Positions 57,755 to 61,103 of a DNA stretch of 64,000 nt are shown here, piece after piece. This stretch comes from Xanthomonas sp. (GTDB lineage: Bacteria; Pseudomonadota; Gammaproteobacteria; Xanthomonadales; Xanthomonadaceae). The notes below the pieces were generated by a model. The model did no database searches. It saw only the letters and a list, made by a program, of their open reading frames with translations, and was not told where the DNA came from. The translations under genes were made by a program, and so were the position numbers. The DNA is taken from NCBI RefSeq assembly GCF_017163755.1, contig NZ_JAFIWC010000029.1, positions 1 through 64,000 of the forward strand, in the 5' to 3' direction. The first letter of the stretch is position 1. Each line of letters opens with the position of its first letter.

Positions 57755-57850
57755 GGGAGCGACTCCGGACAGCCTGGCCATCGGTCGCGACAGGCATACC
57801 GAAAAAGCCTCGTTGCGACCGATGGCGCGAAGTTATCCGGAGTCGCTCCC
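57755..57850. repeat. 96-bp dispersed palindromic element
   Basis: A nested inverted repeat. The outer arms GGGAGCGACTCCGGA (57755-57769) and TCCGGAGTCGCTCCC (57836-57850) match over 15 bp without error. The inner arms CCATCGGTCGC (57778-57788) and GCGACCGATGG (57815-57825) match over 11 bp. The loop includes a region near AAAAAGCC. Shorter relatives of its right arm occur at 54757-54788 and near 63310-63330. This is a REP-like element of the type scattered in Xanthomonas chromosomes. Confidence 0.85.
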
Positions 57851-58063: not shown

Positions 58064-58504
58064 TCATGCGACACGCCCCGGACCGCGCGCATGACCGGCA
58101 AGCTCGAACAGCCGCCGGCCCGTCCACGACAGGATCACGCACCCCGCACCGGCGAGCAGCCAGCCCAGCGAAACCTCGCCGAGCGCGTACCGCAACGGCT
58201 GCCATCCCTGCGCGCCGTAGCGCACGCCCACGCCAAGCAACGCGATCGCGAACACCGCCAGCAGGATTCGCGACATCGCACGCTCGATTCCGGCGTCGTG
58301 GCGAGCGACGCGTTCGGCGACGCCGGCAGCGAAATCGGCCGGCGGCCCGGCAAGCGGGGCGGAAGCCAGCGCCTGGGCCACGATGCGGTAGTCCGCGTCC
58401 GCCGCGTCCATCCCGCCAGCCTCGCGCCCGCGCGCCGCGCGCCGGCCGCGTTCCTGCGCCTCCCATTCGGTTTCGTCGTCCAAGCGCTTGTCCGTCATGT
58501 TCAT
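58064..58504 (-). CDS. Probable membrane anti-sigma protein
   Basis: 146-residue protein with a charged N-terminal cytosolic part (MNMTDKRLDDETEWEAQERGRRAARGRE), a segment DYRIVAQALASAPLAGPPADFAAGVAERVA typical of proteins partnered with ECF sigma factors, and two membrane helices (ILLAVFAIALLGVGV and LGWLLAGAGCVILSW). The start overlaps the sigma gene stop as ATGA, so the two are translationally coupled and co-transcribed. The zinc-binding HxxxCxxC motif of classical anti-sigma factors is absent. The anti-sigma role is inferred from context and layout. Confidence 0.7.
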   Translation of the reverse strand: MNMTDKRLDDETEWEAQERGRRAARGREAGGMDAADADYRIVAQALASAPLAGPPADFAAGVAERVARHDAGIERAMSRILLAVFAIALLGVGVRYGAQGWQPLRYALGEVSLGWLLAGAGCVILSWTGRRLFELAGHARGPGRVA

Positions 58505-59100
58505 GCCGATGCTCCGATGCGCGATTGCAGCAGTTCCCGCAGCCGCAGGCGGCTGCGGAAAAGATGGCTCTTGATGGTGCCTTCGGCAAGACCGGTCATG
58601 TGCGCGATCTCGCCGATCTGCATTTCTTCCAGATGATAGAGCGTCAGCACGGTCCGCTGCAGCGGCGGCAAGGCATCGATGGCGCCGTGCAAAAGCGCAT
58701 TGATTTCCTCGCTCGCCGCCGTCGCCTCCAGGTCGGTGCCGTCGCCGACCCGCTCGGCCAGGAACATGCCGTCCTCGTCGCCGCTCGGCTCGGCGATCGG
58801 GACGCGCTTGCGCTCCAGATGCCGCCGGGCCACCGAATAGGCCACCTGCGCGATCCACGATTTCAGTGCGCTTTCGCCGCGGTATTGGTGGATGGAGCGG
58901 TAAACGCGCAGGAACACCTCCTGGCACAGGTCTCGCGTGTCGTCCGGGTGCCGCACCATGCGATCCACGATGTGCCAGCACAGGTTCTGATAGCCGCGCA
59001 CCAGCTGCTCGAACGCGCCGGGCCTGCCGGCCAGCACGGCGGCGGCCAGCGCCCGGTCGGCATCGAGGGTCTGGTCGGCAGCGGGAGGCGGGCTGGGCAT
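58501..59100 (-). CDS. ECF-type RNA polymerase sigma factor
   Basis: 199-residue sigma-70 family factor with region 2 (FEQLVRGYQNLCWHIVDRMVRHPDDTRDLCQEVFLRVYRSIHQYRGESALKSWIAQVAYSVARRHL, in parts) and region 4 (LPPLQRTVLTLYHLEEMQIGEIAHMTGLAEGTIKSHLFRSRLRLRELL, in parts). The start at 59100 is preferred over a TTG at 59151, because a matching ECF promoter lies between them and would place the transcript start just before the 59100 ATG. Its stop overlaps the anti-sigma start as ATGA. It is probably controlled by its own promoter. Confidence 0.9.
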   Translation of the reverse strand: MPSPPPAADQTLDADRALAAAVLAGRPGAFEQLVRGYQNLCWHIVDRMVRHPDDTRDLCQEVFLRVYRSIHQYRGESALKSWIAQVAYSVARRHLERKRVPIAEPSGDEDGMFLAERVGDGTDLEATAASEEINALLHGAIDALPPLQRTVLTLYHLEEMQIGEIAHMTGLAEGTIKSHLFRSRLRLRELLQSRIGASA

Positions 59101-59107
59101 TGCGTAT

Positions 59108-59137
59108 AGGGATACGTCGGTCGGGGCATCGGTTGCA
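59108..59137 (-). promoter_or_regulatory. ECF-type promoter driving the sigma gene
   Basis: On the minus strand TGCAACC (59131-59137) is followed after 14 bases by CGTATCCCT (59108-59116). This is the AAC (-35) and CGT (-10) pattern of ECF promoters. The transcript start should fall about 59102-59105, only a few bases before the ATG at 59100, so the mRNA may be almost leaderless. The mirrored plus-strand copy is at 59147-59176. Confidence 0.75.
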
Positions 59138-59146
59138 ACGGATCGC

Positions 59147-59176
59147 TGCAACCGGACGGCAGCCGGGCGTATCTCC
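59147..59176 (+). promoter_or_regulatory. ECF-type promoter driving the divergent membrane protein
   Basis: TGCAACC (59147-59153), then 14 bases, then CGTATCTCC (59168-59176). The -35, spacer length and -10 match the minus-strand promoter of the sigma gene. The two -35 boxes face each other as an inverted repeat GGTTGCA-N9-TGCAACC. A start near 59180 gives a leader of about 30 bases before the ATG at 59211. Confidence 0.75.
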
Positions 59177-59210
59177 TTGGTTACCCGCCAACAACACGGA
59201 TGCCGGCACC

Positions 59211-59537
59211 ATGAATTTCAACCTGCTCATTCCCATCACTCTGTTCATCTGCATCGCCTACTCCATCAAGACGGTGGTCGACGCCTACATGCGTCGGCGG
59301 ATCGTCGAATCGCGCGGCTCCGAGGAGCTGGTGCGCTCGCTGCTCGAAGGCGAAGCCACGCGGCGACGCCAGGCCTCGCTGCACTGGGGCAGCGTGCTCC
59401 TGGCGCTGGCGATCGGCTTCGGCCTGGTGGAACTGCTCGGAGCCGACCGGATCACGCCCGGCGTCGTCGCCCTCCTGCTCGGCGCCACCGGGCTGGGCAA
59501 CCTGGCGTACTACTTTCTGCAGCGCGCGCTGAAATAG
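59211..59537 (+). CDS. Small inner-membrane protein, likely target of the ECF sigma factor
   Basis: 108-residue protein. It has an N-terminal hydrophobic helix (LLIPITLFICIAYSIKTVVDAY), a short polar loop (RRRIVESRGSEELVRSLLEGEATRRR), then two hydrophobic segments (SVLLALAIGFGLVELLG and GVVALLLGATGLGNLAYYF). It resembles small DUF6249-like membrane proteins, but I am not sure of the family. It is transcribed divergently from the sigma gene behind a matching ECF promoter. The function is unknown. Confidence 0.75.
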   Translation: MNFNLLIPITLFICIAYSIKTVVDAYMRRRIVESRGSEELVRSLLEGEATRRRQASLHWGSVLLALAIGFGLVELLGADRITPGVVALLLGATGLGNLAYYFLQRALK

Positions 59538-59606
59538 GCCGCCCGCCTTCCGCCCGGGTGTCCGGTGCAGCGTCGTCGCCATCCATCAACAAGCAAAGGA
59601 CATTGC

Positions 59607-61103
59607 ATGAAGCACTTCGCGACGGCCCTGGCCGCCCTGGTCGCAACCGCGCCATTCCAGGCGCCCGCCGCATCCGCTCCCGACTTCACGCCATTGGACG
59701 GTTTCATCCGGAAGACCAAGCAGGCCACCGCGCTCGCCTCGGGCACGGCGGTGGCCGTGGTCAAGGACGGCAGGATCGTCTACGAGGGCTACTTCGGGTT
59801 CTCGGACATCCAGGCGCGCACGCCGGTGACCGGCGACACCGTGTTCTACCTCGCCTCGGCCACCAAGCCCTTCTTCGCGCTGAACGCGCTGCTGAAGGAG
59901 GAGGCCGGCCAGCTGGACACGCACATGTCGCTGCAGCGGATGTTTCCGCAAGCCCGTTTCGCGGGCATGGATGCCGGATCGGTGACCATCAAGGACCTGC
60001 TCGTCCATTCGTCGGGAGTGGACAACCAGCCCCTGGTCTGGGCGACGGCGTACAGCGGCATGCACGACGCGCAATCGCGCCTGGCATTGATCGCGGCGTC
60101 CTATCCCGATGCGCAGGCCGCGCGGGGAACCTTCAAGTACAGCAACGTGGGCTACAACATCCTGAGCGTGTGGCTGGACCAGCGCCTTTCGCTGCCATGG
60201 CAGGAACAGCTGGAAAGCGCCATCTTCCGGCCGCTTTCGATGCGGCACACGTCCGCCTACGTCAGCAAGGCGCAGGCGGCGGGATGGACGTTGGCCGCGC
60301 CCTATTCGTTGGCGAGCGCGCAGCCCAGCCAGCCGCTGTACCTGGTCAAGTCGGACGCGACCATGCACGCGGCCGGCGGCATCGTCTCCACCGCGCCGGA
60401 TCTGGCCAGGTTCCTGACGGCGCAGCTTTCGACGGATGGCGACGCGGCGATCGCGCGGACGGCGATCGCGAAGTCGCACGAGCCGCAGGTCGCCTTGGAC
60501 TCGCAGTACCTGGACTTTCCGCGCGCCGGTTACGCGTGGGGTTGGTACACGGGCCAGTACAAGGGCAGGCGGATGCTGCACCACTTCGGTGGCTTTGCCG
60601 GCTTCCACGCCCACCTGTCGTTCATGCCCGACGAGAACATCGCGCTGGTCGTGCTCAACAACGAGGATGTCTTGGGAGCGCAGCTGACCAACCTGATCGC
60701 CGACTATGTCTACGGCGTTCTGCTGCAAGAGCCGGACGTCGAGTCCAAGCTGTCGCGCCGGTTCGACGAGCTGCAAACGAAGACCCGGCAGATGCGGCTT
60801 GCCGCCGCCGAGCACCGGAAGGCGGTCCAGGCGCGCGCGTGGCGCCTGTCGCGGCCGCGCGAGGACTATGCCGGTACCTATTCGAACCAACTGCTGGGCG
60901 ACATGACCGTGCAGTTGAACGACGGCCAGCAGATGCTCATACGCTGGGGGCGGCTGGCGGCAGTGGCCACCGCCGGCGAGCAGCAGGACTGCGTCCGCGT
61001 CGAGTTCTCGCCCAACTCGGGGCAGCTGCTGGACTTTACCGTGCAGGACGGAGCGGTCCACAGCATTTCGTTCGAGCGGATGGTGTTCAAGAAGGAACGC
61101 TAG
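59607..61103 (+). CDS. Secreted serine hydrolase of the beta-lactamase fold
   Basis: 498-residue exported protein (signal peptide MKHFATALAALVATAPFQAPAASA). The catalytic S-A-T-K is in YLASATKPFFALN, Y-S-N in FKYSNVGYN, and the third motif is H-F-G-G (HHFGGFAGFHAHLSF) instead of K-T-G. The C-terminal 130 residues form a separate beta-rich domain. AAAGGA six bases before the ATG at 59607 supports that start. It follows the small membrane protein by 70 bp on the same strand and might share its ECF promoter. The substrate is unknown. Confidence 0.83.
   Translation: MKHFATALAALVATAPFQAPAASAPDFTPLDGFIRKTKQATALASGTAVAVVKDGRIVYEGYFGFSDIQARTPVTGDTVFYLASATKPFFALNALLKEEAGQLDTHMSLQRMFPQARFAGMDAGSVTIKDLLVHSSGVDNQPLVWATAYSGMHDAQSRLALIAASYPDAQAARGTFKYSNVGYNILSVWLDQRLSLPWQEQLESAIFRPLSMRHTSAYVSKAQAAGWTLAAPYSLASAQPSQPLYLVKSDATMHAAGGIVSTAPDLARFLTAQLSTDGDAAIARTAIAKSHEPQVALDSQYLDFPRAGYAWGWYTGQYKGRRMLHHFGGFAGFHAHLSFMPDENIALVVLNNEDVLGAQLTNLIADYVYGVLLQEPDVESKLSRRFDELQTKTRQMRLAAAEHRKAVQARAWRLSRPREDYAGTYSNQLLGDMTVQLNDGQQMLIRWGRLAAVATAGEQQDCVRVEFSPNSGQLLDFTVQDGAVHSISFERMVFKKER

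Follow-up and report, generated by a model that had tools for sequence, protein, structure and literature searches.

Extracytoplasmic function (ECF) sigma factors usually have promoters of the AAC/CGT type, a co-transcribed anti-sigma factor and autoregulation (PMC8103513). The sigma-E regulon of Streptomyces coelicolor is broad, with about half of it envelope-related and with promoters that mostly have AAC in the -35 and CGT in the -10 element (PMC6767563). In Pseudomonas syringae transcription of the hrpL gene depends on sigma-54, and holoenzyme at the hrpJ promoter represses it (PMC5263251), and in Escherichia coli mRNAs 5'-terminal AUG upstream ORFs (uORFs) can influence the cistron behind them, the downstream gene having its own Shine-Dalgarno sequence (PMC4965119). 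These four sources are cited from excerpts, and the comparisons made with them extend as far as those excerpts do. Given the usual traits in PMC8103513, the core of the module found in the window (the whole analysed stretch of 64,000 nucleotides) is ordinary.

The locus is probably an autoregulated ECF sigma module of a type already known, with two features that are both conserved and unusual. Like an operon of the RpoE-RseA type, it has a sigma factor of sigma2 and sigma4 domains only, a promoter before the sigma gene itself with AAC in the -35 and CGT in the -10 box, and an overlapping downstream membrane protein whose family contains a weak RseA_N-like stretch. It differs from that type in its divergent second promoter copy, held in helical phase, in a predicted near-leaderless sigma message with a coupled mini-ORF in some relatives, and in its putative targets, a DUF6249-like protein and a serine hydrolase. 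Like hrpL and hrpJ as described in the excerpt, the locus pairs an ECF sigma gene with a divergently oriented gene that this sigma is predicted to activate, with adjacent regulatory elements; unlike that pair, it carries the same ECF promoter on both sides.

The preliminary description had reported TGCAACC-N14-CGTATC on both strands with the -35 boxes facing each other across 9 bp, and both copies were confirmed as exact (Table 1), reading TGCAACCGATGCCCCGACCGACGTATC on the minus strand and TGCAACCGGACGGCAGCCGGGCGTATC on the plus strand. The sigma factor has the two-domain composition of ECF (group IV) proteins (Sigma70_r2 at residues 33-99, Sigma70_r4_2 at 136-187 of 199), and among the best 25 of 87 NCBIfam matches only the superfamily model TIGR02937 exceeded its cut-off. 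The promoter arrangement canonical for ECF factors, AAC in the -35 and CGT in the -10 before their own gene, is present as TGCAACC-N14-CGTATC 10 nt before the sigma ATG (59100-59098). On the other side, the DUF6249-like gene starts with an ATG at 59211, 37 nt past its -10 hexamer; its product scored 30.2 bits against DUF6249 (PF19762), under the gathering cut-off of 33, and is named DUF6249-like only. The distance from the -10 to this start fell into two modes in relatives, near 36 and 49 nt. The serine hydrolase has, by eye, a signal-peptide-like start and SxxK, YxN and HxG motifs, and would form one operon with the DUF6249-like gene.

Table 1. Coordinates of the features of the sigma module in the window
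Feature	Position	Strand	Remark
Promoter, sigma side: -35 TGCAACC (59137-59131), N14, -10 CGTATC (59116-59111)	59111..59137	-	exact match
Promoter, DUF6249-like gene: -35 TGCAACC (59147-59153), N14, -10 CGTATC (59168-59173)	59147..59173	+	exact match
Gap between the -35 heptamers, 9 bp, heptamers facing each other	59138..59146	.	
End of -10 hexamer to sigma ATG, 10 nt	59101..59110	-	
ECF sigma factor gene, 199 aa, Sigma70_r2 + Sigma70_r4_2	58501..59100	-	
Membrane protein, 146 aa, probable RseA-like anti-sigma factor; ATG overlaps sigma stop (ATGA)	58064..58504	-	
DUF6249-like membrane protein, 108 aa	59211..59537	+	
Serine hydrolase, PF00144 class, 498 aa, 69 nt behind the DUF6249-like gene	59607..61103	+	

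When the window was shuffled 100 times with its dinucleotides preserved, the motif had no match. Across the whole genome (5,069,976 bases), with spacers of N13-15, there were three exact matches and none to the reversed-pattern control. The third match was on another contig, inside a 383-aa ORF (L001:612-1763) that by eye has the look of a C13-type peptidase. Allowing one mismatch with N14 gave four sites compared to 13 for the reversed control; the fourth (L157:1453-1527), at a different place in the genome, has TGCAACG for TGCAACC, precedes a membrane-like ORF of 119 aa by 47 nt and is indistinguishable from chance. An excess of the motif beyond the pair was not found in this genome at zero or one mismatch, and the motif therefore marks one locus here, with no wider regulon shown. 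In this the module is unlike the broad sigma-E regulon of S. coelicolor, which it resembles, going by the excerpt, in its AAC/CGT ECF promoters and putative envelope-related targets. The suggestion that the sequence supplies a ready motif for finding the regulon consequently failed in the window's own genome, where nothing rose above chance with zero or one mismatch, but held to some extent in certain relatives, in which single N14 copies precede serine hydrolases.

Relatives were gathered in two ways, by protein similarity and by motif. The full set comprised 110 loci, was partly fetched by motif match and included a few distant sigma factors (L019, L041, L134); the protein-only subset comprised 36 non-redundant loci. 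In the locus scan the -10 was relaxed to [CGT][GAT][TC]ATC, with a spacer of 14 only in the 110-locus scan. A sigma-side promoter was present in 31 of the 36 protein-only loci and both promoters in 27; the corresponding counts in the full set were 101/110 and 93/110, with a divergent DUF6249-like homologue in 104/110, while 9/110 lacked the scanned motif on the sigma side. When spacers of 13-15 were allowed, N14 was found at every sigma locus having a site. This conservation gives good support to the earlier prediction that the sigma factor would activate its own operon together with the divergent membrane protein gene. We consider it probable that both sites are promoters of this sigma factor and that, once freed, it would activate two operons from a rotationally related pair. 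The preliminary description was thus right in its observation and in the core of its interpretation, but the interpretation was incomplete and is partly supported: the overlapping membrane protein (a probable anti-sigma factor), the downstream hydrolase and the helical phasing were absent from it.

Two other readings of the paired sites were weighed against co-activation. The facing heptamers make a perfect inverted repeat, so GGTTGCA-N-TGCAACC might be a palindromic operator to which a dimeric transcription factor binds, with the CGTATC boxes present by coincidence. It is highly improbable that this is what the repeat represents: the distance from TGCAACC to the -10 was always 14 at the sigma loci when 13-15 was allowed, whereas the half-site gap ranged from 1 to 302 bp across related loci, and single N14 copies precede other genes. 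The close back-to-back geometry also recalls the precedent of P. syringae HrpL (PMC5263251, as excerpted), in which case holoenzyme on the divergent promoter would repress the sigma gene in negative autogenous control, with no co-activation. Such repression appears improbable, as hrpL is sigma-54 dependent whereas the sigma gene here has a copy of the same ECF promoter, in 31/36 protein-only loci; a second promoter may also lie before this gene. Co-activation by the sigma factor is the reading followed below.

Among 397 genomes from the order, 55 contained the pair at gaps no larger than 30 bp, at one place each and with no control matches, and 12 contained it at gaps of 31-60 bp. A draw of 299 genomes of the phylum contained 7 from the order; the pair occurred in two genomes, both among those 7, and in none of the 292 from outside the order. 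Within the genus, the sigma factor was found in 0/19 other genomes at E<=1e-30 and the DUF6249-like protein in 0/19 at E<=1e-5, and on a quick tree the window's sigma was placed near entries from several families. Because of this absence from the 19 genomes and the tree position, there are hints that the locus (58064-61103) may have been acquired by horizontal transfer.

Some relatives departed from the common layout. The DUF6249-like gene is not divergent in L015, L058, L061 and L074. Within group g64, some genomes (L058, L061, L074) have this gene co-oriented with sigma and upstream of it, and others (L059, L060, L160, L161) lack the start codon near the -10 that is described below, so the arrangement seems to be changing within the genus of this group. 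In eight Luteimonas loci (L024-L029, L031, L036) the -10 on the DUF6249 side is GGTATC or CGCATC and the sigma side keeps CGTATC; given this difference the two promoters may be unequally strong in these loci. GGTTGCA and TGCAACC boxes also face each other upstream of a sigma with 32% identity in an Acidobacteria MAG (L041:3780-4001), where the -10 is another one, GGTCTC by eye, and on this ground the -35 pair may predate the order.

Transcription from ECF promoters usually starts 6-8 nt past the -10. An ATG or GTG lay 8-11 nt past the sigma-side -10 in 73 of 76 loci compared to 2/70 on the other side (Fisher p about 3e-35, relatedness ignored). In a larger set this near start codon was present in 96/101 loci, and in 31/31 of the protein-only loci, and it was kept even when out of frame with sigma. 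The five loci without it were L059, L060, L068, L160 and L161; in L068 an SD-like GGGAGGAG precedes the start (by eye). The leader of the sigma message would therefore be about 0-5 nt; in the window it would be about 2-5 nt, which would leave no room for a Shine-Dalgarno sequence between the predicted transcript start and the sigma ATG. The almost leaderless sigma mRNA proposed from the window is in this way supported by the position of the start codon in relatives. A conventional leadered message from a promoter further upstream, with the start codon near the -10 by chance, would be compatible with a sigma frame that in many loci stays open on the far side of the promoter and with the longer TTG-start ORF that can be drawn in the window. 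We judge this quite improbable, however, as a start codon 8-11 nt past the -10 in 96/101 loci, even out of the sigma frame, stands against 2/70 on the divergent side.

The near start codon, where it was not sigma's own, opened a mini-ORF instead (24 loci, a count that leaves out L117). This mini-ORF had six codons in 22 of the 24 loci and five and seven in the remaining two, with a variable peptide sequence, and in all 24 a start codon in the long reading frame of sigma overlapped its stop. An SD-like stretch preceded the sigma start in five. The near start codon opens a uORF ahead of a cistron as in the E. coli mRNAs with 5'-terminal AUG uORFs, from which, as far as the excerpt of PMC4965119 goes, the relatives differ in the six-codon length, in the overlap of the stop with the sigma start and in the scarcity of SD-like stretches (5/24). 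At least six switches between the direct and the mini-ORF state were counted on the quick sigma tree. The junction between sigma and the putative anti-sigma gene was an ATGA-type overlap in 63/64 loci, and mini-ORF, sigma and anti-sigma look like a chain of coupled translation that would be fed from a leaderless start. A leaderless start that is conserved, and that survives in the form of a short coupled mini-ORF in loci where sigma itself starts elsewhere, would be comparative evidence that leaderless initiation in a sigma gene is selected for and not merely tolerated. The six-codon coupled arrangement was not found among literature titles and abstract openings, a source in which subscription papers are thinly covered and which is no proof of novelty.

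The 146-aa protein encoded behind sigma belongs to a family with a conserved N-terminal part followed by two apparent membrane helices (topology by eye). RseA_N matched 12 of 52 homologues weakly (best 5e-4); the window's protein itself had no Pfam match, and searches with its model and profile gave no convincing match. It is likely to be an anti-sigma factor because of the place of its gene, the apparent coupling to sigma and the weak RseA_N match in homologues.

The length of the -35 gap varied mostly in steps of about 10.5 bp among relatives. In the 67 genomes of the order with the pair, gaps (bp, with the number of genomes in brackets where above one) were 1 (3), 5, 8, 9 (3), 10 (20), 11 (14), 12, 13, 20 (2), 21 (5), 22, 23, 24, 30, 31 (4), 33 (3), 38, 44 (2), 49 and 53. 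The ranges 14-19 and 25-28 were empty in three genome scans (the order genomes and two families), and 7 of 93 gaps were out of phase (5, 24, 38, 38, 49, 78, 196). Collapsed to 43 genus-gap cases, the gaps gave R(10.5)=0.67 (p<=5e-5 compared to jittered gaps), and the 21 cases above 13 bp gave R 0.63 (p=2e-4).

Shared descent, or a mutational tendency to add some 10 bp at a time, might produce such a periodicity at promoters that are otherwise real. Many of the genera are related, and the distinct gap values alone gave just p 0.02-0.03. On the sigma tree, gap differences were compared between 19 branch-disjoint nearest pairs, each differing by 4 bp or more. These differences (9, 10 in five pairs, 11, 12, 13, 20, 22, 23, 28, 28, 29, 39, 42, 57 and 94 bp) gave p=0.0015 at 10.5 bp, with a best period of 9.5-10.25, and counting all differences from 1 bp gave p=0.0056. 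The lengths of the DUF6249-like leaders, as a control on the same tree, gave p=0.54 and 0.32. The signal was less robust in two respects that favour an artefact: with gaps above 60 left out and all differences counted, p was 0.016 at 10.5 and the best period 13.25 bp, and in forty random branch-disjoint pairings the mean cosine was always positive but weaker (0.04 to 0.58).

In-phase and out-of-phase bins were then fixed beforehand and two families scanned, which added 35 previously unseen genomes. The 14 gaps outside 8-13 bp included 13 in phase. Collapsed to genus-gap cases, 9/10 were in phase (null 40%, p=0.0017), and per genus 6/7 (p=0.019); since five of the seven validation genera were already present in the earlier material, some of them with an identical gap, this validation is not fully independent. 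The gaps of one close pair (L037/L039) differed by 10 bp with no clean tandem duplication visible by eye. Set against the nearest-pair result and its control, the empty ranges, the prediction that held and this close pair, an artefact of descent or mutation seems rather unlikely.

An interaction of the two promoters on DNA, via holoenzymes or alpha-CTDs, would be the most direct reading of the phasing. In the mechanism we propose, a signal would release sigma from its membrane anti-sigma factor (58064-58504), and the holoenzyme would switch on two operons at once. The leftward operon of sigma and anti-sigma would provide positive feedback with a built-in brake, and the rightward operon would express the serine hydrolase along with the DUF6249-like gene. 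The message for sigma would have no leader or almost none, with translation of sigma and anti-sigma coupled through the ATGA and, in some relatives, the six-codon leaderless mini-ORF as an additional coupled link ahead of sigma. The promoters would act as one unit, their -35 spacing near whole helical turns, such that two holoenzymes (or their alpha-CTDs) could bind back to back, each at a fixed rotation relative to the other. A stronger version is put forward tentatively as a possibility: the holoenzyme pair might be rotationally locked and cooperative, so that one binding event fires both operons, and the leaderless chain from sigma (or from mini-ORF to sigma) to anti-sigma might set their ratio.

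Helical phasing between the two promoters of one ECF sigma factor was not found among the same literature titles and abstract openings, with their thin coverage of subscription papers and no proof of novelty; if true, such phasing of one promoter against another would amount to a regulatory rule without a match in that material. Autoregulated ECF modules are common, and an interaction between the two promoters of one sigma factor is rarely cleanly testable. The natural series of spacings (gaps near 1, 10-11, 21, 31-33 and 42 bp) makes a holoenzyme-holoenzyme interaction directly testable.

Further candidate targets were sought in relatives by comparing 23 N14 sites outside sigma promoters with 40 sites with a spacer of 13 or 15. 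Among the matches listed, a relative of the hydrolase lay downstream on the same strand at 7/23 N14 sites compared to 0/40 wrong-spacer sites (p=4e-4), a contrast in which spacing and the presence of the sigma in the control genomes are not separated. One of the seven cases (L015) is near a sigma locus, and without it the count is 6/22. The hydrolase in L049 has 67% identity to that of the window and starts 28 nt past the -10. Others of the 23 sites precede one retropepsin-like and one alpha/beta-hydrolase-like ORF (by eye), and several are inside ORFs. A search by the name DUF6249 returned nothing beyond a plant paper in the part of the literature covered, and the motif places the DUF6249-like protein, together with one class of serine hydrolases, in a putative regulatory context. 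On the other flank of the module, between a PQQ-dehydrogenase-like gene and the sigma operon, lies a nested inverted repeat (57755-57850; 24-nt arms 83% complementary, inner 15-nt arms 93%) that resembles a small dispersed palindromic element.
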